The position numbers and the translations under genes are program-made. The notes beneath the pieces were generated by a model, which saw only the letters and a program-made list of their open reading frames with translations, ran no database searches and was not told the DNA's origin. DNA of 35,659 bases from Candidatus Hydrogenedentota bacterium (GTDB taxonomy: Bacteria; Hydrogenedentota; Hydrogenedentia; Hydrogenedentales; SLHB01): contig JACRLJ010000109.1 of the NCBI GenBank assembly GCA_016215105.1, positions 1 through 35,659 of the forward strand, read 5' to 3'. How positions within the stretch are numbered: position 1 is the first letter of the stretch; the number at the start of each line of letters is the position of its first letter. Shown one piece after another: positions 7,848 through 25,410 of this stretch.

Positions 7848-7943
7848 GTTTCCGGTTTCTGCGCAGGAGGGACGCAAGTTGCCGGAGGCGTGTCGTGATA
7901 TTTCCGTGTGTCCAGTCAGATGGAAAGAAGCAGAAGATCTAAC

Positions 7944-8024
7944 GCCCCTCCGGGGCTGGCGCTTGGACATGGTCTGTTCCCACGGCTCACGCCGTGGGCT
8001 ATCATCTGCCGCCCCTGCCGGGGC
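7944..8024. repeat. Three-palindrome intergenic element, variant A
   Basis: Three perfect palindromes follow one another. The first is GCCCC-TCC-GGGGC (7944-7956). The second is CCCACGGC-TCAC-GCCGTGGG (7979-7998). The third is GCCCC-TGCC-GGGGC (8011-8024). The layout matches that of the element at 16507-16588, although the palindrome sequences differ. It sits between the 3' end of the minus-strand gene at 8201 and the promoter of the next minus-strand gene. In RNA it would form three hairpins. It looks like a REP/BIME-type dispersed element; no REP transposase is in the window. Confidence 0.75.
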
Positions 8025-8083
8025 TAATCACGCACCTCGCGCGACGAGATGCGCAGACGCAATCACTAATCACTGCCCTAAAG

Positions 8084-8113
8084 ATCCGGTCAGGAAGTCG
8101 GCTTTTTGACGCG
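8084..8113. repeat. 30-bp dispersed repeat, copy 1
   Basis: This stretch matches 25682-25711 at 25 of 30 positions, with all five differences being transitions. It contains a CCGG...TCGG stem (one G-T wobble) around an eight-base loop and ends in TTGACGCG. Like the second copy it lies just downstream of a minus-strand gene stop. Confidence 0.7.
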
Positions 8114-8200
8114 GAGCGGCCAGAAAGCGTCTGAAAGTTGTTCAATACCAGCGCTGGCTTGTGCGAAGTCTTGCTATGCGGAGGCTTCTTGGCCACGCAT

Positions 8201-9076
8201 CTAGATCGTCTGCGCCATGGCGCTCTTGAGCGCATCGGGGTCGATGGACTTCTTGCTTCGGGTTCGCTGAAGATCGAATTCCGGCATACGGCGCTCGAGC
8301 AGCGCGAGGGAGAGCTCGATCACCTCGGCGGCTTCGTCGGGCGTGAGCGTGCCGATGGTGACCATGTCCTGGTCACGCAGCGTGCCCCATGCGAAACCGA
8401 GCCCTGCAATGGGCATAAGCCGTCCCGCTGCGAGCGGTTTGATGGTCATGACGGGCTTCTTGGCTTTCCAAATGACACGATGGACCCAGTCCACCTCGAC
8501 CTGCATGAGGAAGCCAATGGCGTTGTAGATCTGGATATACGTGGCGACATCGAGGCCGGTTTCGTCGGCGTAGAGAATCGCCTCGGGCATGTGCGTCGAG
8601 AGTCCGGGAATCATGCCACGCTCGCGGACCATGGCGAGGTATTTGTCCATGCCGGTGATGCGGCGATTCACGCGGTCAATCAGGGCGTCCGTCGTGGCTT
8701 GGTGCGGCATGCAAAAGTCCGCGCCAATCGCGGCATGGGCGTCGAGGGTGCGCGCGGCGTTCGACATCGCGTCGGGCGCGCTGGACAGATCGAGGTGAGG
8801 TGTGGCGATGCGAATGCAGCGGCGTCCCGTGCGATCCTCGGCGTCCTTGATGGCGTCATCCATGTGGGGAAAGTTGGTCGAGATGCCGCAAAACGTATTG
8901 ACGCCGGCATTGAAAAAGACCTCGAGCACGTCGGCGATGCGCTCTGCGGTCATCGTATCTCGGATGAAACGGTCCCGCGCCTGGCTGGTGTGGGAAAAAC
9001 CCGCGAACCAGTTGGAGCCGATAATCAAGCGCGATACCGAAAGATGCTCAATTGGAGTCGCTGGAAAGTCGGGCAT
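8201..9076 (-). CDS. TIM-barrel protein, aldo/keto reductase-like, function unknown
   Basis: The start at 9076 is chosen because AGGAGA stands just before this ATG; the frame is open further upstream but without a ribosome site. The 291-residue product has no signal peptide. Its layout recalls aldo/keto reductases: an early IIGSNWFAG, then VLEVFFNAGVNTF where those enzymes have the GINFFDTA motif, and a late KPLAAGRL followed by TLTPDEAAEVIELSLALLE, like their C-terminal helices. The catalytic Asp and Tyr of the reductases are not at the expected places (the sequence there is NTFCGIST). Several His-containing turns (NFPHMDD, TPHLDL, MPHQATTD, STHMPE) might form a different site. It may be a conserved TIM-barrel hypothetical rather than a redox enzyme. 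It lies downstream of the alpha-mannosidase, separated by a strong hairpin. Confidence 0.7.
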   Translation of the reverse strand: MPDFPATPIEHLSVSRLIIGSNWFAGFSHTSQARDRFIRDTMTAERIADVLEVFFNAGVNTFCGISTNFPHMDDAIKDAEDRTGRRCIRIATPHLDLSSAPDAMSNAARTLDAHAAIGADFCMPHQATTDALIDRVNRRITGMDKYLAMVRERGMIPGLSTHMPEAILYADETGLDVATYIQIYNAIGFLMQVEVDWVHRVIWKAKKPVMTIKPLAAGRLMPIAGLGFAWGTLRDQDMVTIGTLTPDEAAEVIELSLALLERRMPEFDLQRTRSKKSIDPDALKSAMAQTI

Positions 9077-12743: not shown

Positions 12744-12784
12744 AAAAAAGACGGTGGCCAATGCAGTGCATTGACCACCGTCTT
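12744..12784 (-). terminator. Rho-independent terminator of the lipoprotein gene
   Basis: Read on the minus strand, a 10-bp stem AAGACGGTGG/CCACCGTCTT is extended past one mismatch by a 6-bp inner stem closing a three-base loop, and then runs into six T residues. It lies about 120 bp beyond the lipoprotein stop. A second smaller hairpin (GGTTCC, eight bases, GGAACC at 12800-12819) lies between. Confidence 0.9.
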
Positions 12785-12903
12785 GCTTTACTACTTACCG
12801 GTTCCGAAAAAAAGGAACCCATACCGACTAGCTGCGATTCGCGCGCGCCGGTAGCCCCGTCATTGGGTTCAACAGCCGCGCAACGCGTTGTCGTTCAGTT
12901 GCC

Positions 12904-13188
12904 TTACTTCGCGGCAGGCGCGGGAGCCGCAGGCGCAGGCGCGGGCGCGGGCGCAGGAGCCGGGGCCGGAGCGGGCGCGGGAGCCGGAGCGGCGGGCGCG
13001 GGAGCCGCAGGAGCAGGCGCAGGAGCCGGAGCGGCTTCCTTCTTAACTTCGACCTTCTTCTCTTCCTTCTTCTCGGTCGTCGTTGTCGTCTTGTTCTCAC
13101 CAGGCTTCGCCGGCGTCGTACCGGAATCGCAACCCACTACCGCAAGTGCAAATGCGAACGCAAAAACCAATCCCAACAACTTCTTCAT
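12904..13188 (-). CDS. Small Ala-Pro-rich lipoprotein
   Basis: The ATG at 13188 has a strong ribosome site (GGAGGAG). The 94-residue product starts with a lysine pair and a hydrophobic stretch ending in a lipobox (AVVGCDSG), so Cys20 should be lipidated and the protein membrane-anchored. A short Thr-rich and Lys/Glu-rich segment (TEKKEEKKVEVKKEA) follows. The C-terminal half is nearly pure Ala-Pro, broken by Ala-Ala pairs, a rigid spacer-like design. No enzymatic domain exists. Such proteins are often abundant envelope components; a wall-spanning spacer role is inference only. It forms its own transcription unit, with an extended -10 promoter and a clear terminator. The DNA of the Ala-Pro tract is itself a GC-rich repeat, so copy number could vary between strains. 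Confidence 0.85.
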   Translation of the reverse strand: MKKLLGLVFAFAFALAVVGCDSGTTPAKPGENKTTTTTEKKEEKKVEVKKEAAPAPAPAPAAPAPAAPAPAPAPAPAPAPAPAPAPAAPAPAAK

Positions 13189-13255
13189 GACTGTCTCCTC
13201 CTGCTTTTTGTTGTTTTCCCAAGAACCGGTACAAACACAAGATACTAACCGGTCC

Positions 13256-13284
13256 AGTATAGCATTAGTCCGCCTCAATTCCAA
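13256..13284 (-). promoter_or_regulatory. Extended -10 promoter of the lipoprotein gene
   Basis: On the minus strand: TTGGAA, 17 bases, TATACT, with TGC directly before the -10. It is among the best sigma70 matches in the window. Two ACCGGT boxes, 23 bp apart (13225-13230 and 13248-13253), lie at and just after the expected transcription start and could bind a regulator. Confidence 0.75.
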
Positions 13285-13371
13285 CAGGTCATTAAGGCGC
13301 GCCAAACTCACGGAATGCAGGCGCCAACGGTGGCCCAAACGATTCCCCGCGTCCGGCAGTACAACCAGCGG

Positions 13372-14586
13372 CTACAAACTACCCCGAAGTAAACCTACAA
13401 CTTGGTCCATTATGCGCTCTGCCAGGGCATCTTTGTCAATATGACCGATATCCGCGGAATTCCCACGTTTGTCCACAATTGCCGCGCGCAACGCGTCCAT
13501 CCCGAATCCGGCGTCATCCCCGCCCACCAGATTGGCGACGATCAGGTCGAGGTTTTTCGCCGCGATTTTGGACTTGGCGTTCTCCATGACGTCGCGCGTC
13601 TCGGCGGCGAAACCGACGATAACCTGTCCTGGACGCCGCTCGCGGCTGACTGTTGCAAGGATGTCCGGGTTTTCCGTCAACGCCAGCGTCAGCGGGCTTC
13701 CGGTCTTCTTGCGCTTATCCTGACTCGCTTGCTCGGGGCGATAGTCCGCGACGGCGGCCGCGCCAATAATCACGTCCGCGTTCCGCGAACACTCCACAAC
13801 GGCATCCGCCATTTGGCGCGCCGTTTCGACCTCGACCAGTTCCGCGTTAAGGGGATAGTCCACGCTCGATGGGCCATACACCACCGTCACGTGCGCGCCA
13901 CGGCCGAGCGCCTCGAGCGCGAGAGCCCGGCCCATCTTGCCGGAGGAGCGATTGCCGAGGAAGCGCACCGGGTCAATGGGTTCGTGGGTGGCGCCGCTCG
14001 TGATGAGCACCCGTTTGCCGGCCAAGTCTGTGCGTCCGGACAGAAGCGGTAATGCCGCGTCGAGTATCTCCGCTGGCTCGCTCATGCGCCCTGGCCCGAC
14101 CGTCCTGCAAGCGAGGCGGCCCACGCCCGGCCCCACGAAGTGACACCCCCGAGCTCTTAAGAGCTCGATGTTGGCTTGTGTCGCGGGATGGGTGTACATG
14201 GCGGTGTTCATGGCGGGAGCGAACAGGATCGGCGCGCGCGTCGCCAGCAGAGTCGTGCTGAGCCAGTCGTCCGCGACGCCGTGGGCGGCTCTGGCAATGA
14301 TGTTGGCGGTGGCGGGTGCGACAAGGAAGAGATGGGCGCGCTGAGCGACGGCGATGTGCTCGACGTCGGTGTTTTGGAGCGGTTCGAACATGCCGGTGAT
14401 CGCGCGCCGCCCGGTGATTGCCTCGAAGCTGACGGCTCCGACAAACTCCTGGGCGGCACGGGTAAGCACAGGCAAGACGTTCACGCCCAATTCAACAAGG
14501 CGGGACGCCAAATCGCAGGCCTTGTAGGCCGCGATGGACCCGGTGACGCCGAGGACGACTTCCTTATTCGATATACTCGTCTTCAT
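13372..14586 (-). CDS. coaBC: Bifunctional phosphopantothenoylcysteine decarboxylase/synthase
   Basis: The 404-residue protein makes 4'-phosphopantetheine for coenzyme A by joining cysteine to phosphopantothenate (CoaB) and decarboxylating the product with FMN (CoaC). The CoaC part shows the N-terminal GSIAAYKACDLASRL, His77 in VEHIAV, the PAMNTAM motif at 124-130 and catalytic Cys160 in GRLACRTVGPGRM. The CoaB part starts at about 190 with LITSGATHEPIDPVRFLGNR and SSGKMG, followed by the NPDILATV and FAAET motifs. The length equals the usual 400 residues. It starts within the end of rpoZ, overlapping it by 23 bases in another frame, so translation is likely coupled. It is the last gene of the yicC-gmk-rpoZ-coaBC operon. 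Confidence 0.97.
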   Translation of the reverse strand: MKTSISNKEVVLGVTGSIAAYKACDLASRLVELGVNVLPVLTRAAQEFVGAVSFEAITGRRAITGMFEPLQNTDVEHIAVAQRAHLFLVAPATANIIARAAHGVADDWLSTTLLATRAPILFAPAMNTAMYTHPATQANIELLRARGCHFVGPGVGRLACRTVGPGRMSEPAEILDAALPLLSGRTDLAGKRVLITSGATHEPIDPVRFLGNRSSGKMGRALALEALGRGAHVTVVYGPSSVDYPLNAELVEVETARQMADAVVECSRNADVIIGAAAVADYRPEQASQDKRKKTGSPLTLALTENPDILATVSRERRPGQVIVGFAAETRDVMENAKSKIAAKNLDLIVANLVGGDDAGFGMDALRAAIVDKRGNSADIGHIDKDALAERIMDQVVGLLRGSL

Positions 14587-16399: not shown

Positions 16400-16506
16400 C
16401 TTTCGCGGTCCAGGAGGTCCATCGTATGCTCGGGGTGAACGTGATTCGGGCGGACGGGCCGAATGGCCGACGATCATTCTCGGACGTTATGCCGCCATCA
16501 ATAGGA

Positions 16507-16588
16507 CGCCCTTTCAGGGCGCACATGACTCCGATGTCCTATTCCCAGGGCGTTGCCCTGGGCTGACGTAGAATCGCCCTTTCAGGGC
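16507..16588. repeat. Three-palindrome intergenic element, variant B
   Basis: Three perfect palindromes: CGCCCT-TTC-AGGGCG (16507-16521), CCCAGGGC-GTT-GCCCTGGG (16544-16562) and GCCCT-TTC-AGGGC (16576-16588). Order and spacing match variant A at 7944-8024, but the arm sequences differ in a compensating way. It occupies most of the 332-bp gap 16339-16670 between the pilT stop and the yicC promoter, which holds no gene. From memory, elements of this GCCCTTTCAGGGC/CCCAGGGC kind are frequent in some PVC genomes; this could not be checked here. Confidence 0.8.
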
Positions 16589-16670
16589 TGGAGAATACGA
16601 TCGTCTAATCTGTTATCACCATTGCGGCTATATGACGTGTCCAGAATGTTCGAGATTCTTCGCCCGCTAT

Positions 16671-17759
16671 CTAGTCGGGTGGCCGGGTAAAGTTGATACC
16701 GACGGACTCGAACTGCTTCATGAGATCGTCCTTGTCCATGGCCTTGCGATAGGCTTCCTCTGGCTCGACCACGTCCGTCTTGACCAAGAGCGCCAATTGT
16801 TCGTTGAGCAGCGTCATGCCTTCTTTTTTCGCGGTCTGCATGATACTCATGATCTGGCTGGTCTTGCCTTCGCGGATCAGCGAGGCGACCGCCGCGTTGA
16901 CGACCATCACCTCGAGCGCGGCGACGCGTCCACCGCCTTTCTTCTTCAAGAGGTTTTGGGCAATCACGCCTTTCAGACCGGCGGAAAGCATAATCCGAAT
17001 CTGCTGCTGCTCGTCTACCGGAAACTGGTCAATCAATCGGTCCACGGTCGAGATGGCGGTGGTAGTATGCAGCGTGCCAAACACCAGGTGCCCGGTTTCC
17101 GCGGTTTCAATGGCAATGTGGGTGGTTTCGAGGTCGCGCATTTCGCCGACGAGCACGATATCCGGGTCTTCGCGCAGGGCCGCGCGCAAGGCGGCTTTGA
17201 AGCTCTTGGTGTGCGTATGCACTTCCCGCTGATTCACGAGGCAGCGCTTGTTCTTGTGTACGAACTCGATCGGGTCTTCAATGGTAATAATGTGGTCGTT
17301 GCGGGTGGTATTGATGTAATCGATCAGCGCCGCGAGCGTGGTGGATTTCCCGCTCCCGGTGGGGCCGGTCACGAGAATGAGTCCTTTGTTCAGCGAGCAG
17401 AACTTTTTTACGGTCTCGGGCAGATTAAGCTGCTCGACGGTAAGAATATCGGTGGGTATGAGCCTGAATACGCCCCCGATGCCCTTGTGATCACGAAAGA
17501 TGTTGCAGCGGAACCGGCCAAACCCCTCGAGTTCGTAGGCGAAGTCGGTGTCATTGACCGTGTTGAATTCCTCTTCCTTGTCCTTGGGCATGATTTCGTA
17601 GAGCAGGGTCTTGGCGGCCTGAGGGTCGAGGATCTCCTCGTTGCGAAAACTGACCATCCCCCCATCCTTGCGCAGGGATGGCTTGGCCCCAGTGGAGATG
17701 TGCAAGTCGGATGCCTTGTGTTCAACGACCAACTTGAAGTACTTGTCTATCTGTGCCAT
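16671..17759 (-). CDS. pilT: PilT-type twitching/retraction ATPase
   Basis: The 362-residue protein is the hexameric ATPase that depolymerises type IV pili at the inner membrane. Motifs in order: an N-terminal ASDLHISTGAKPSLRKDG, Walker A TGPTGSGKST at about 131-140, the Asp box HIITIEDPIEFVH, Walker B region EDPDIVLVGEMRDLET, and the His box TAETGHLVFGTLHTTTA. The start is the ATG preceded by AAGGAG seven bases upstream; the longer open frame would extend through the promoter. No other pilus gene is in the window, so assembly genes must be elsewhere. It is divergent from the GH30 gene, whose earliest possible ATG overlaps this start codon on the other strand. Confidence 0.95.
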   Translation of the reverse strand: MAQIDKYFKLVVEHKASDLHISTGAKPSLRKDGGMVSFRNEEILDPQAAKTLLYEIMPKDKEEEFNTVNDTDFAYELEGFGRFRCNIFRDHKGIGGVFRLIPTDILTVEQLNLPETVKKFCSLNKGLILVTGPTGSGKSTTLAALIDYINTTRNDHIITIEDPIEFVHKNKRCLVNQREVHTHTKSFKAALRAALREDPDIVLVGEMRDLETTHIAIETAETGHLVFGTLHTTTAISTVDRLIDQFPVDEQQQIRIMLSAGLKGVIAQNLLKKKGGGRVAALEVMVVNAAVASLIREGKTSQIMSIMQTAKKEGMTLLNEQLALLVKTDVVEPEEAYRKAMDKDDLMKQFESVGINFTRPPD

Positions 17760-19386: not shown

Positions 19387-22300
19387 TCACAGTCCCAAGG
19401 CGGCGTTGATCACCAGTTGCACATCTACCGCGTCGATGCTGCCGTTATGGTCGATGTCGGCGTCAAGTCCTGCAATACTCAGGCTCAACGCGGCGTTGAT
19501 CACCAACTGCACGTCCACCGCGTCCACTGCGCCGGTGCGATCTATGTCGCCTTTCGTACCGAGCGGGTCGCTGCCGGACGCGACTTCCTGGCCGTCACTG
19601 ACACCGTCCCCGTCCGTGTCCGCCTTGGCCGGATCGGTGTGGTACACGAGGGCTTCTTCGCCATCGGTGAGACCATCTGCGTCCGTATCCGAAAGGGCTG
19701 GGTCCGTGCCGTAGCGTAATTCCGCCTTCGTGTCCAGTCCATCCAAGTCCACGTCGGGCGCGGGAGGCAGCGCGACAATAAGCGTGAACTCCTGCGTGTC
19801 GATCGCGGCATGGGTATCGGCCGCGGTCACAGCTATGTGATACGTGCCTTGTTGATCCTGCGCGGGCTGCCACGATATTTGGCCGGTGGCAGCGCTGATG
19901 ATCATGCCGGACGGCCCGGCTGCCAACGCGTAGGTAAGCGCGTTCCCGTCGAGGTCTTGCGCATCAACGTCGTAGAGGTATGTCATGGCCGCTTGGCCGG
20001 TGGTCACCGGCGCACTCACGATCTGGGGCGGGTTGTTGGCGCTGCCCGCCGCCACCGGCGTGACTACTTGCTCGTTGGAGGGCGCGCTCTCGACCCCGGT
20101 GTCGTCCACAGCCGTGACCCACATTCGGTAGGTTCGGCCGGTCACGAAGGTGCGTGTGTGCGTGGTTGTCTTGCCGACGGCCTCTGCGCTGGCCGTGGCA
20201 TTGGCGACACCTTCTTCACGCCAATGGACGCGGTACGACGCCAGGTTGGGTCCGCCGCCATCTGTCCACTGAGCCGTGACGTCTGCGCCGTTAAGGGTCG
20301 TGAGGAAATTGGCCGGCGCGGGCACGGCGGTCGCGTGGGAGACGAGGACGGGATTGTCGAGATAGGCGCACTGTGGCGCATTTTTGCCGTCGTCCACCTT
20401 GACATACACATAGTAGGTACCAGGAGCTACGGCGCGAGTGTCCCAAATGTATTCCATGTACTCGTCGTTCTCCGTCAGGCCGGTCACGATGGTCAGCCCG
20501 TCGAAACCCAACCGGTCGGTGTCGTAGTACAAGCTGACCGAGGCGTCGCCGTCGGGGTCGCTTGCCACAAAACCGATGGCCACGTAATCGGTACCGATGG
20601 TCTTTTTCTTGGACGGCACGGTGGACACCGTTGGCGGCATGTCGACGTGGCAGACCGCGACGTCAACTGTGCCGAGCGCGGCAGGGTTCGCAATCTCCAC
20701 TTTCCACGCGCCTGATTCGGGGTAGTTGAGGATATAGAACGCGAGGTTTGCGGACGGATTCGAGATGTACGAGTACTTGACTCCATCGGCTTCGCCGGGG
20801 GTGTAGCGCGTCGTTCCGGGCGCGATGAGGTCGAACTCGGGCGCGGCGTCGGTCGTACGAACCGTCACTATGACTTGGCGCTGGTTGCTCGGAATGTCGA
20901 GGGTACCCTGAATTGCCTTACCGGGATAAAGGGCCGCGAACGCTTTGGTATCCGCGCGCTTGAAATCGAACCAGTCCAATGGATTTCCGATATCAATGTT
21001 GGCGCCGATGTCGGGAAGTTCACCGGGCTTGATGGTAACGGTAACTTCCATGGATTCAACGCCCACCGACCCTTTGAAGCCGTCGTTGGTAAGGGAGGTG
21101 GTCAGGCTGACGGAATAGGGAATCCAGTTGACCAGATCACAATCCGTATCGGACAGGCTGATGTCGCCGGTGGCGGTCGCTTCGAAGCGATTATCGAAGC
21201 CGAGCGTAAAGGAAATACCGGGCTCGTACACGTTCTCCCACAAGTATGCAGTGGCGCCAAAGCGGAAACCGGGGTCACCGCTCGAGGGCATGCCGAAGTG
21301 GGCGACGATCTGCGCCATTTCGTATCCCTCGTTAGGTCCGCCGAATAGATAGATGGTTCCGGTGGCGTCGAACATGCCGGAGGTGTCGTAGATCAGTTCA
21401 GGGACGCCCGTGATCAGGCGTTGGCCGAAGACTTCCGGTCCAATGGTCAGTTCGCAACTGGCCTTAATCTTGAGCGGTGGCGGGCCGGGCGCCATATCCA
21501 TCAACCCGCCGGAGACGGATTGCAGCCAGACCACGCCAGACCCGTCGAGATTGATTCCGGGGTCGGGAAAGCCAATCCCGAGCAGGACGGTTTCGAGGCG
21601 GCCCTGGCGAATCGTGATTTGCTCGATGATCACGTCAAACTTGGGTGTGGTCAGCGTGCCCCCGCCGCCAAATTCCTGCTCGATGGTGTTGAGGTCAATG
21701 TGCGCGTCCTCGAGGCCCCAGGGGAAACTCGCGAACTTGATATCGGGCAAGTTGATCTGTCCGGCGAATTCGACGCCTTCGGTAGATGTGACCTGTAGCG
21801 TTGTCACATCGACGCTGCCGCCAATTTCTTCCGGTAGCTCCAGCTTGCCTCCGATCTGGATGCCGTGCGCGACAAACTGGAATGACGCGATTTCGACATT
21901 CAGACCTACGACCTCGAGCAGCGACGCAGCGGCATTCAAGCCTTGGACCGCCGCGGCTGAGGCATCAATGGAAATGTTCCCCTGGTAAATGTCGAGTTCG
22001 CCGCCCGGAACATACGGGACGTGGGTCGCAAACCATTTTCCCGAACCGCCCACAGTCAATGCGGCGCCGTCGAGCGTCAGCGCCCCATCGAAATGAAGGA
22101 AGCCGTTGATAGTGACGTGTCCGGACGCCTGCCACTGATTCGTTCCCGTGCTTGCGATCACGTCCGCGCGGATGGTGAGTAATCCGATGGTCTTTTCGGT
22201 TTGGTTCGGAGGCAGATCCTGGTCGTCGTTTGGATCATTCCCCGCGTCCACTTCTTCACCGTCTGAATGACCATCGCCATCGGAGTCGCCCAGCAGCGGA

Positions 22301-25300
22301 TTTGATCCGCTGGACACTTCCTGGCCGTCGGTAAGGCCGTCCCCATCGCTGTCGGCGTTGCCGGGATCGGTCTCTCCGGTATCCACGACGCCGTTCGCGT
22401 TGGCGTCTTCGACACTGTCGAGCAAACCGTCACCGTCCGTGTCTGGAATCGGGGGAACCGTAAATTGATAGGGACGGACGCCATAATTGGTGTGCAAGGT
22501 CACGGTAATGGCCGTGCCCGGCGCGGGAATCGGATTGAAGACCAGATGCACGATGTATCCGGCGCCGGCGAGCCCCTGCGCGACGCTATCGTAGATGTTC
22601 GCCAGCCCATCGGCCGTCCCCGTGCCAACGTAGAGTCCGCGCGTTTCGCCGGCCAGCGTGTGCAGCGCCTCCGCCGCGACGGAGCCGGGAACGGCTGCCG
22701 GGCCGAGTCCTACGGTCACAATAGGAATGCGCAGGTCTTTGGCCTTCTGAATCGCCTCGTCTCGATGAGTGTCGGTGTTCGGCTGGCCATCGGAGAACAA
22801 CACCAATACACGCTGCCAAACGTCCGTGGTCTTTTGCGCGTCAAACCAGGTGAGCGATTCGGAGACCGATTCGTAGAGTGGCGTACCTCCGGTATCCGAC
22901 AATAAGTCCATGGCAGCTTTCAGCGCTACGTTGTCGGAAGTGAAATCCTGGTGGAGCGTGGTGTAGTGGAACCCAAGGCCAGGACGTTGAAACTCGAGTA
23001 CGGCCGCTTGGTCGCCAGCGCCTAAACGATCCACGAAAGCCTTCCCCGCGTCAATCCGGACGTCGTGCGGATCGGTGCTGTCGAGGCTGCCGCTGCCATC
23101 GAAGAGTAGCGCGGCGGCGAGTGGTTTTGGCGCGCTGCCGGCGCTCTCGACAGTGGCGGAGATACCCAGGCTGCCGGGATCCACATCGGTCTGCGTCAAG
23201 ACCAGCACGGGCAAGTCCTTTTCCATGTCCTTCGCGGGTGGCACAATGAATGAGATCGCGGCGAGGATGAGGTCCACTTTGCCGTCGCGCCAAAAGCTGT
23301 GCGATATCCGGTCTTCGAGGATTACGGTATCGACCGGTATGCTCGAGGGGTCATAGGGATCGAAGCCGCTCCGGTATTCGTCACCGTCGTTGAATCCGTC
23401 GTTATCGGAATCTGTATCGAGACGGTTTGGAATGGTGTCGCCGTCCGGATCGGCGTCGCCTTCGATGTAATCCGGGACGGTGTCGGCGTCCGCGTCCGGC
23501 CACAGTTCGTTGGCCATAGTCAGATAGGAATCCTCGAGCACAAGTAACGTTTCAGCCTTCGTATTTCCGTTGTTGAGGAATTCGATGACGAAGGTGTTGT
23601 CGCCCTGCGCCGCGAATCCGGCAGGGATCGTCAGCACGCTGTTGGCGGCGCCCTGAACTGCCGTGGCGCCGTTGATCTTGAGCGCGTAGTTGAGCGTTGT
23701 GACGCCGTTTCCAACGCCGCCGCGGTTAGCGGTATGTACCTTGATGGTTCCGGCGGAGTTAGGCGCGGACAGCTTCACGGCAAAGGTCAGTGTTTGCCCT
23801 TCGCCACTCACCACGGGCCCTTGCCGCCGCATCTTGAAACTGCCGTACGGTAACGCGGCCTCGGTGAGCTGTATGTAGGAATCCTCGATCACGAGCGTCG
23901 TGTCGGCGGAGGAATCGCCGTCGCTCTGGAACTCGAAGACGAACGCATTGTCACCCTTCTGGATTACGCCGCTCGGAATGGTGATGGCGCTCGATGTGCC
24001 TTTGGCCACGGGCTCACCGTTGATCTTCACCACATACGGGAGGTAATCCTGTCCGTTTTCAAGGTTGCCGCGGTCTGTGCTGTGTACCAAGACCTTGGCG
24101 CTAGCGCAGTCGAATGCAGAGTTAACGGTGAAGCTTAGGGTGTCGCCCTCGGCCTTTACGACCGAGGTCTGCCCTCGCGAGAGGAAACTTCCGGCTGGTA
24201 AGGCGGCCGGTTTCAATTGGATATACGAATCTTCGAGGACGAGCGTGGTTTCGTTTTTCACGTCGCCGTCGTCGATGAAATCAAACAACAACGTATTGTC
24301 GCCCTGCTGCAAGATACCGCTGGGTACCGTAAGGGCTCCGCTAGTCCCGGTGACGATCGGTACGGTATTGATGCGCAAGACGTAACGCAGGTAGTCGAGA
24401 CCGTTGCCATCGCCGCCCCGATCCGTGCTGTGAATCTTAACGGTAGCGGAGGCGCATTCATAGGGACTGTTCAGGACAAACGCAAGCGACTCGCCTTCGG
24501 CCTTCACGATGGGCGCTTGGCCCATTGAACGGAAACTACCTGCGGGCAGGGTGACCTGACGCACCTGAATGTAAGAGTCGTCCAGCACAAGAATGGATTC
24601 GGCCTTGGCGTCGCCATCGTCCCGGAACTCGAAGGTAAACGTGTTATCGCCGGGCTGGATGACGCCGCTCGGAACGGAGAGCGTTCCCGTGGAGGCGCCA
24701 ACGGAGGTCCCATTTATCTTCAACACATACCGCATCGCGGTGATACCATTGCCGACGCCGCCGCGATCCGTATTGTGAATCCGAACGGTGGCGGCGGCGC
24801 ACTCGAAGGCCGAGTTCACCGTGAACGTGAAAGACTCACCTTCCGTGCGAACAACGGGGCCTTGTCCGCGCGAAATGAAGCTTCCGGCGGGCAGGACGGC
24901 TTCTTCGATTTTGAGGTATGCGTCTTCGAGGACTTGGGTGGTCTCCGTGTAGGCGTCGGTGTCGGGGGGGAACTCAATCGTGATCGCGTTCGTGCCCTGG
25001 AGTAACGCGCCTGCGGGCACGGTCAGGGTTGCCGTTCCGCTCGTGCCGGAATATCGAACGACGTCCAGCCCGTTTACCTTGACACGATAGGGAAGGGCTG
25101 CTCGGCCGAAAGCGCCGCCATCGCTCATTGAGTGAAGATAGATCTTGGCAGATGCGCAGGTATACGGGACTTCAACTGAAGTGGAACGACTATCACCCTC
25201 GGTAACGACTCCACTAAACCCGATGGGTTGTTGGAAACTGTTCAGTTTCAGCGCTAGTTCGTCGGAAGACTGCGGTGGAGAAAGTGAATCGTCCAAGTTG

Positions 25301-25404
25301 TCGTCCGGTGGCAAAGCGACTTCGGCGATCGCGCGGCACGTCAGGACGATTGCAATAAGAATGAACAGCCAGAAACAGCGCGCCCCGGGAAAACGGGTTC
25401 CCAT
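19387..25404 (-). CDS. Giant secreted VWA/dockerin multidomain protein
   Basis: About 2005 residues. The ATG at 25404 has GGAGG five bases upstream; a GTG two codons earlier is less likely. A signal peptide (WLFILIAIVLTCRAIAE) is followed by five repeats of about 116 residues (51-635), each with LPAGSF, a CASA-type Cys, GDNTFxFEF and VLEDSYI motifs. Next come a calcium-binding thrombospondin type 3 stretch (DADADTVPDYIEGDADPD), a VWA domain (about 765-950) with MIDAS motif LFDGSGSLDS, a second calcium stretch, and about 440 residues of beta-rich sequence I do not recognise. An Ig-like region, an FN3 domain (about 1690-1785), an Ig/cadherin-like He_PIG domain and more calcium repeats follow. 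The end is a type I dockerin (GDIDRTGAVDAVDVQLVIN and a second copy). It is probably cell-surface or extracellular; a cohesin partner must lie elsewhere. Confidence 0.88.
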   Translation of the reverse strand: MGTRFPGARCFWLFILIAIVLTCRAIAEVALPPDDNLDDSLSPPQSSDELALKLNSFQQPIGFSGVVTEGDSRSTSVEVPYTCASAKIYLHSMSDGGAFGRAALPYRVKVNGLDVVRYSGTSGTATLTVPAGALLQGTNAITIEFPPDTDAYTETTQVLEDAYLKIEEAVLPAGSFISRGQGPVVRTEGESFTFTVNSAFECAAATVRIHNTDRGGVGNGITAMRYVLKINGTSVGASTGTLSVPSGVIQPGDNTFTFEFRDDGDAKAESILVLDDSYIQVRQVTLPAGSFRSMGQAPIVKAEGESLAFVLNSPYECASATVKIHSTDRGGDGNGLDYLRYVLRINTVPIVTGTSGALTVPSGILQQGDNTLLFDFIDDGDVKNETTLVLEDSYIQLKPAALPAGSFLSRGQTSVVKAEGDTLSFTVNSAFDCASAKVLVHSTDRGNLENGQDYLPYVVKINGEPVAKGTSSAITIPSGVIQKGDNAFVFEFQSDGDSSADTTLVIEDSYIQLTEAALPYGSFKMRRQGPVVSGEGQTLTFAVKLSAPNSAGTIKVHTANRGGVGNGVTTLNYALKINGATAVQGAANSVLTIPAGFAAQGDNTFVIEFLNNGNTKAETLLVLEDSYLTMANELWPDADADTVPDYIEGDADPDGDTIPNRLDTDSDNDGFNDGDEYRSGFDPYDPSSIPVDTVILEDRISHSFWRDGKVDLILAAISFIVPPAKDMEKDLPVLVLTQTDVDPGSLGISATVESAGSAPKPLAAALLFDGSGSLDSTDPHDVRIDAGKAFVDRLGAGDQAAVLEFQRPGLGFHYTTLHQDFTSDNVALKAAMDLLSDTGGTPLYESVSESLTWFDAQKTTDVWQRVLVLFSDGQPNTDTHRDEAIQKAKDLRIPIVTVGLGPAAVPGSVAAEALHTLAGETRGLYVGTGTADGLANIYDSVAQGLAGAGYIVHLVFNPIPAPGTAITVTLHTNYGVRPYQFTVPPIPDTDGDGLLDSVEDANANGVVDTGETDPGNADSDGDGLTDGQEVSSGSNPLLGDSDGDGHSDGEEVDAGNDPNDDQDLPPNQTEKTIGLLTIRADVIASTGTNQWQASGHVTINGFLHFDGALTLDGAALTVGGSGKWFATHVPYVPGGELDIYQGNISIDASAAAVQGLNAAASLLEVVGLNVEIASFQFVAHGIQIGGKLELPEEIGGSVDVTTLQVTSTEGVEFAGQINLPDIKFASFPWGLEDAHIDLNTIEQEFGGGGTLTTPKFDVIIEQITIRQGRLETVLLGIGFPDPGINLDGSGVVWLQSVSGGLMDMAPGPPPLKIKASCELTIGPEVFGQRLITGVPELIYDTSGMFDATGTIYLFGGPNEGYEMAQIVAHFGMPSSGDPGFRFGATAYLWENVYEPGISFTLGFDNRFEATATGDISLSDTDCDLVNWIPYSVSLTTSLTNDGFKGSVGVESMEVTVTIKPGELPDIGANIDIGNPLDWFDFKRADTKAFAALYPGKAIQGTLDIPSNQRQVIVTVRTTDAAPEFDLIAPGTTRYTPGEADGVKYSYISNPSANLAFYILNYPESGAWKVEIANPAALGTVDVAVCHVDMPPTVSTVPSKKKTIGTDYVAIGFVASDPDGDASVSLYYDTDRLGFDGLTIVTGLTENDEYMEYIWDTRAVAPGTYYVYVKVDDGKNAPQCAYLDNPVLVSHATAVPAPANFLTTLNGADVTAQWTDGGGPNLASYRVHWREEGVANATASAEAVGKTTTHTRTFVTGRTYRMWVTAVDDTGVESAPSNEQVVTPVAAGSANNPPQIVSAPVTTGQAAMTYLYDVDAQDLDGNALTYALAAGPSGMIISAATGQISWQPAQDQQGTYHIAVTAADTHAAIDTQEFTLIVALPPAPDVDLDGLDTKAELRYGTDPALSDTDADGLTDGEEALVYHTDPAKADTDGDGVSDGQEVASGSDPLGTKGDIDRTGAVDAVDVQLVINAALSLSIAGLDADIDHNGSIDAVDVQLVINAALGL
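23505..25260 (-). repeat. Five coding repeats of about 348 bp
   Basis: Inside the dockerin gene, five successive 116-residue units are readable. The first is the most divergent; units 2-4 share near-identical motifs (TDRGG, INGxxV, VPSGVIQ, DNTFxFEF). Each carries a single Cys in units 1-4 and looks like an all-beta domain. The fifth has lost the Cys (APNSAGTIKV). Confidence 0.85.
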
Positions 25405-25410
25405 GTCCAC

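Follow-up and report, generated by a model that had tools for sequence, protein, structure and literature searches.

The window, the whole stretch of 35,659 nucleotides analysed here, contains two intergenic elements in which a layout of three palindromes is repeated with different bases in the arms, and the question is what such elements are and why pairing and layout are kept when the sequence is not. The first-pass annotation placed these elements at 7944-8024 (element A) and 16507-16588 (element B), and they are present there: A consists of GCCCCtccGGGGC (7944-7956), CCCACGGCtcacGCCGTGGG (7979-7998), and GCCCCtgccGGGGC (8011-8024), B consists of CGCCCTttcAGGGCG (16507-16521), CCCAGGGCgttGCCCTGGG (16544-16562), and GCCCTttcAGGGC (16576-16588), and all six stems are perfect. 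Our analysis suggests that A and B quite probably belong to two families of extragenic, REP-like DNA elements, which would be recognised as single-stranded hairpins and spread by TnpA transposases of subclass 1.2.

Architecture of elements A and B

Read on the minus strand, a unit consists of a small hairpin H1 (13-15 nt) with a tag on its 3' side, a few bases, (T/C)AG at the 5' foot of a large hairpin H2 (8-bp stem), a spacer, and a second small hairpin H3 followed by a tag of the same kind. The spacer between H2 and H3 is typically about 23 nt (about 20-35 nt over the copies) and is unconserved, and the tag common to H1 and H3 is GNAAGA in the A family and GNNCTAT in the B family. The earlier description of A and B was accurate; it had overlooked the 3' tag of the small hairpins, the (T/C)AG foot of H2, and the Rfam identity of A. 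The features are as follows.

7936-8028, minus strand: whole unit of element A with its three hairpins (H1-tag, AG-H2, spacer, H3-tag), from the sequence and a match to covariance model R1 (97.9 bits, E = 1.6e-21) that is partly by construction, the window copy being among the 25 sequences behind R1
7979-8025, plus strand: match to RF01687, Acido-Lenti-1 (cmscan, 49.7 bits, gathering cut-off 37, E = 1.8e-8), spanning H2 and H1 of A on the opposite strand
8011-8024, minus strand: H1 of A, GCCCCGGCAGGGGC, from the sequence, kept in 25 copies, then tag GGCAGA (8005-8010) on the minus strand
7979-8002, minus strand: H2 of A with its ATAG foot (hairpin 7979-7998, foot 7999-8002; 8-bp stem, 4-nt loop), from the sequence
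7944-7956, minus strand: H3 of A, GCCCCGGAGGGGC, from the sequence and the alignment, then tag GTTAGA (7938-7943) on the minus strand
8065-8081, minus strand: degenerate copy, weak here (6 mismatches in 17), of an inverted repeat that frames other A copies (see below)
16499-16592, minus strand: whole unit of element B, with the three hairpins of the second family, from the sequence and from its H2, which is one of the exact genome copies counted below
16576-16588, minus strand: H1 of B, GCCCTGAAAGGGC, from the sequence, with 3' tag GATTCTA (16569-16575)
16544-16565, minus strand: H2 of B with its CAG foot (foot 16563-16565, hairpin 16544-16562; 8-bp stem, 3-nt loop), from the sequence and pattern copies
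16507-16521, minus strand: H3 of B, CGCCCTGAAAGGGCG, from the sequence, with 3' tag (G)TCCTAT (16501-16506)

When folded as single-stranded DNA, A and B were more stable than shuffled sequences (z of -3.5 to -4.7). A loose three-hairpin test gave about eight further matches within the 35-kb window besides A and B. The plan alone is not rare under loose rules in G+C-rich DNA, and therefore only repeated or gene-linked copies were counted as evidence.

Element A is above the gathering cut-off of RF01687 (Acido-Lenti-1; PMC2864571), with which it has both hairpins (H2 and H1) and the linker in common. No match to element B was found in the window at this cut-off, and B copies are mostly just under it, other copies scoring 36.8, 35.6, and 33 bits. 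Rfam describes a 46-nt RNA, whereas the repeated unit here has three hairpins and is inverted around a transposase gene, which is better explained as DNA.

Copies in the genome

The genome (6.68 Mb in 171 contigs) contains about 41 covariance matches to RF01687 and 18 exact variant-B hairpins (0 for the reversed-pattern control), and a covariance model built from 25 A copies found 71 elements, B-type elements being picked up as well. It is because of this recurrence, and not the plan by itself, that A and B are beyond chance. In the alignment of the 25 A copies, the TAG of H2 is invariant and its stem is paired in 99% of the cells. Three pairs of the A family vary on both sides, with 17 double-sided compensatory cells compared with 5.5 in shuffles. 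Both the further copies with pairing kept and the selection on structure that had been proposed from the window alone are therefore borne out. The compensatory changes, along with the Rfam type (sRNA), also speak for the view that Acido-Lenti-1 is a true small RNA or cis-acting RNA gene, as filed in Rfam, with an incidental transposase neighbourhood. However, covariation would be just as expected if a Y1 enzyme read the hairpins as DNA, and the distribution of the elements, described below, bears on this view as well.

None of the 40 A and B copies overlapped an inferred ORF in this genome, and their gene contexts were tandem in 21 cases, convergent in 14, and divergent in only 3 (ORF inference used a simple codon model with the window as its training set). 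The placement from which a function at the ends of transcripts had been proposed is thus confirmed, but it is typical of REPs and does not prove such a function. The elements might be terminators, 3'-end stabilisers, or attenuators that are retained for that role, as they are extragenic in mostly tandem or convergent contexts, they form strong hairpins, and REPs have known side roles (PMC3733652). We consider this very unlikely, since the elements are absent at the orthologous gene ends of a congener (see below), and the link to a transposase and the paralogue-specific element type would be left unexplained. The interpretation of A and B as intrinsic terminators was rejected because, from inspection of the sequence, neither strand has a run of T after any of the six stems. 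By analogy with REPs, a secondary role of the elements in transcripts is possible. In tandem contexts, 10 of 12 A copies and 5 of 9 B copies were on the same strand as the gene; these are too few to judge, and an orientation bias relative to genes was set aside as a mark of RNA function.

Apart from single units, the REP-like elements occur as inverted doublets, with H3 facing H3. In one genome, the distance between the two units was 129-134 bp for 11 of 12 close pairs; in the genome of the window it was about 115-146 bp for 7 of 7 pairs, compiled by hand from B copies and copies of the type found on contig C137. In addition, about a dozen of 30 A copies (e.g., L149, L151, L153, and L156) are framed by an imperfect 17-nt inverted repeat, CTAGTGTAGTGATTCAC, which lies at near-constant distances, 36 nt from H1 on its outer side and about 46 nt beyond H3. 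Copies of this kind may have been moved within a larger unit, perhaps by another enzyme. The constant distance could also mean that the A family is a larger MITE of about 210 bp, with 17-nt terminal inverted repeats and an unrelated transposase, in which the hairpins are passengers. This is quite improbable, because many A copies do not have these inverted repeats, and the units beside TnpA in other phyla have the hairpin plan in common but no outer sequence. A MITE would account for no more than some of the A copies, the A family being the one scanned for inverted-repeat ends.

Two further repeats adjoin the elements in the window. A separate dispersed repeat of about 120 bp (8084-8204) is found with 74-86% identity at seven other sites of the genome, in the neighbourhood of A elements as well as B elements. 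The sequence on the outer side of H1 in element B (16589-16672) recurs with 74-79% similarity at four other B copies (L044, L045, L060, and L061), and on this basis the B repeat unit may reach about 75 nt past the hairpins.

Association with TnpA genes in the same genome

The first-pass annotation had suspected a link to a Y1 transposase, and the gene neighbourhoods support one. The genome contains 13 Y1 (PF01797) genes, five of which encode proteins of about 150 residues with an HuH motif, WQ, and Y-x3-Q-x2-HH; two of the five are shorter, one having an in-frame stop and one being cut by the contig end. These proteins were assigned to subclass 1.2 of TnpA by the motifs published for it (about 148 aa; HuH motif DH[IV]H; WQ; Y-x3-Q-x2-HH; an extra C-terminal domain; PMC6006769). 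The motifs are invariant or nearly so in 24 aligned proteins and in the five proteins of this genome, of which P0001 has NHVH and P0002 has DHLH. Hairpin elements adjoin all five subclass-1.2 genes, and no unit was found on any of the 14 flanks of the seven other Y1 genes tested in this genome. Furthermore, the type of element depends on the TnpA paralogue: A elements are found at C49 and C86, B elements at C77, a long-stemmed third type at C67, and a fourth type at C137. Complete units were found by the detector at four of the five genes; at C77, only H2 and H3 are left, and the sequence upstream of H2 is also found at C67, where it too abuts the large hairpin. The arm bases of A and B therefore differ most likely because A and B belong to different enzyme-repeat pairs. 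A single element with neutral changes in its arms was considered and rejected, as two REP-like families lie beside two different TnpA paralogues.

Two observations at these loci are reported separately. The TnpA gene beside A elements at C49:71774-72223 (L033) has an in-frame TAA about 19 codons ahead of the usual end, and the frame goes on beyond it. Contigs C67 (L034) and C77 (L032) start with the same sequence, which joins the large hairpin at one and the same position in two different element types. A frame in this sequence ends with AILLAQNATIQQLNPKAA and a stop, and an insertion sequence with these repeats as its target perhaps ends here.

In the TnpA proteins of this genome, Pfam finds Y1_Tnp only, and profile comparison matches the solved TnpA of ISDra2 and ISHp608. 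Their scores against the NCBIfam model REP_Tyr_transpos are at most 29.8 bits (cut-off 80), and P0001, P0002, P0003, and P0005 are above the IS200 family cut-off of 55 bits, with P0004 below it at 48.7. As the enzyme is nearest to those of IS200/IS605 and belongs by sequence to the same Y1 fold family, and as hairpins lie near the ends in both systems, the elements could be the ends of ordinary IS200-like insertion sequences, in which TnpA and its two flanking units move jointly and the dispersed copies are internal-deletion derivatives. The inverted units closely embrace the gene, and the dispersed inverted doublets resemble the same arrangement minus the gene. The close relationship of the TnpA genes at C49 and C86 leaves room for a degree of joint movement or duplication. 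In contrast, the TnpA copies of a genome are mostly divergent paralogues with different ends (mostly 32-54% identity to P0002 here) instead of near-identical copies, single units are common, and the units, inverted on both sides of the gene, are also dispersed alone. We therefore consider this explanation unlikely.

The three-hairpin plan in other phyla

Outside this genome, units were searched for beside 80 TnpA relatives, which are the best protein matches listed from a scan of named genomes and not a random sample, many being from metagenome assemblies; they come from Verrucomicrobia, Planctomycetes, Bacteroidetes, Acidobacteria, Ignavibacteria, Calditrichota, and other phyla. Among these best 80 loci, an automatic detector found the three-hairpin plan on 45 of 80 upstream flanks and 38 of 78 downstream flanks, that is, on at least one side of 55 genes and on both sides of 28, with the units pointing inward. 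Under identical limits, shuffled flanks gave 0-2 (about 1) and regions 800 bp away gave 1 of 71 and 1 of 75; the limits were fixed after the first loci had been seen, so the counts are not fully blind. Reading the same flanks on the wrong strand gave 10, as expected of partly palindromic units.

The 83 flank units among the listed loci contain 69 different H2 sequences. The foot of H2 is AG in 62 of them (CAG in 33, TAG in 21), and H3 lies at a median of 21 nt ahead of the tnpA start codon and 11 nt past the stop codon. The tags of H1 and H3, and those of the two sides of one gene, agree above all 1000 permutations. RF01687 is at or above its cut-off in nine of the 80 listed loci. Across lineages, the stem bases vary and the plan is kept. 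Exact H2 patterns confirmed dispersal in some genomes outside the phylum, often with few copies, which is an undercount as loops and stems drift; the exact pattern had no match in two Algoriphagus genomes, one Chryseobacterium genome, and one Zavarzinella genome.

Presence and absence between related genomes

RF01687 and subclass-1.2 TnpA (counted at E < ~1e-24) were compared in 68 genomes of the phylum of the window. Both were present in 38 genomes and neither in 17, with RF01687 alone in 8 and TnpA alone in 5 (odds ratio 16, rank correlation 0.60, and P = 2.7e-6, a value that is too small because relatedness was ignored). The eight genomes with RF01687 copies and no subclass-1.2 match contain up to 61 copies (G085), and explaining them requires loss or assembly gaps. 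Two congeners were compared at sites where the flanks are 85-93% identical, and the element-bearing intergenic regions were about 690, 787, and 737 nt long, compared with about 111, 23, and 100 nt in the other genome. The shorter site of 111 nt is still weakly alignable with repeat sequence, and one further locus was left out because its site is not spanned by a single contig. The differences comprise whole repeat mosaics, in which the alignments do not delimit single units, and loss instead of gain is possible.

These distributions bear on the view of Acido-Lenti-1 as an RNA gene. Its copy number ranges from 0 to over 70 among related genomes, the arrays are absent from orthologous sites, and in many phyla one transposase subclass is flanked on either side by inverted units, the stem sequences of which change. 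An RNA gene beside TnpA by coincidence is therefore highly improbable.

Comparison with known systems

The elements share with REPs, REPINs, and the REPtrons of RAYT transposases (PMC2817692, PMC3116915, PMC6006769) the short extragenic palindromes in many copies, paralogue-specific types, doublets, and inverted units around a Y1 gene. They differ from them in having three hairpins per unit, a foot that is mostly (T/C)AG and not GT[AG]G, and a class 1 (IS200-like) enzyme instead of a RAYT. GT[AG]G is not general here, GTAG being found only in some A copies. The elements behave like REPtrons, yet they have neither the RAYT protein nor, in general, the GT[AG]G foot.

TnpA of subclass 1.2 has been reported to be without REPs, generally without IS200-type terminal structures, and mostly from Cyanobacteria and Bacteroidetes (PMC6006769). 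The proteins here agree with this subclass in length, DH[IV]H, WQ, and Y-x3-Q-x2-HH. In contrast to the published description, three-hairpin units lie beside 55 of the best 80 genes, and the range of phyla is wider. The Bacteroidetes cases with units (Algoriphagus and Chryseobacterium) speak against the published listing of no repeat for this subclass.

Two other systems were considered and rejected. In TIRtrons (PMC3733652), a Y1 gene is likewise enclosed by inverted repeats, and some of these repeats also occur dispersed in the genome. The published TIRYTs belong to subclasses 2.1, 2.2, and 2.5, with none in 1.2, and most of their repeats share GGGGWSAS (PMC6006769). The protein here is of subclass 1.2 by motif and has only Y1_Tnp in Pfam, unlike the subclass 2.1-type protein with its HTH. 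Class 3 TnpA, with atypical high-copy structures of CnGA foot around a Y1 gene in Acidobacteria and Planctomycetes, was suspected first, from the Acidobacteria and the high copy number. This class has YV[VI]xEQ (Q at +5), NHVH, and W[TA] (PMC6006769), whereas all aligned proteins here have Q at +4, with DHVH/DHLH or NHVH and WQ, and the foot is not CnGA.

In the parts of the open-access literature available to us, no tie of Acido-Lenti-1/RF01687 to any transposase was found. Two reports give it as an ncRNA, beside Tannerella forsythia proteases (PMC13298647) and in Vibrio anguillarum (PMC10059132).

Proposed mechanism and its implications

TnpA of IS200/IS605 elements such as ISDra2 and ISHp608 reads the end hairpins as single-stranded DNA and cuts through one tyrosine. 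In a similar manner, the single-domain Y1 (HuH) TnpA of subclass 1.2 would recognise H1-H2-H3 as single-stranded DNA, cleave beside the hairpins via its catalytic tyrosine, and copy or move the units from one intergenic site to another, with the tag and (T/C)AG serving as guide or cleavage positions. Each TnpA paralogue carries an element type of its own, which flanks the gene in inverted orientation such that H3 lies next to the start codon on one side and next to the stop codon on the other; the H3 near the start codon may also curb translation of tnpA. We propose that stem bases differ between families while pairing and layout are fixed because hairpins and enzyme co-evolve. The recurrence, the architecture, the inverted flanking of TnpA across phyla, the paralogue-specific type, the co-occurrence, and the presence and absence in congeners were all observed here; binding, cleavage, and mobilisation by TnpA are predicted from them.

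More broadly, we think it likely that these elements form an unrecognised superfamily of mobile repeats, the defining feature of which is the layout (H1-tag, AG-H2, spacer, H3-tag) rather than the sequence, and which is spread across many phyla by subclass-1.2 TnpA co-evolving with its hairpins. Acido-Lenti-1 would be a sequence class of this superfamily, as might other orphan hairpin RNA families. Elements of the REP/REPtron kind and the RF01687 family are already known. What appears to be new, from sequence comparison, is the pairing of three-hairpin units with subclass-1.2 TnpA and the assignment of RF01687 to these DNA elements as one of their sequence classes, although transcripts containing it may still fold. 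A TnpA subclass said to be without cognate repeats would thereby gain a cognate DNA element, and an Rfam "sRNA" of obscure function would gain a likely identity. Annotations that count Acido-Lenti-1 as a regulatory RNA, e.g., beside the Tannerella proteases (PMC13298647), need re-examination. Furthermore, a fixed plan with free stem sequence would provide a natural experiment on the co-evolution of HuH enzymes and hairpins, which is testable with small proteins and short oligonucleotides.

Other repeats in the window

Two other repeats were noticed in coding parts of the window. At 23525-24653, there are four 82-nt repeats with a spacing of 348-351 nt; they lie inside a long minus-strand ORF (19387-25410, 2007 aa) and therefore represent a repeated protein module. 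At 12910-13044, within the region of ORF 12761-13444, there is a G+C-rich tandem repeat of short period, with steps of 9 and 12 nt.
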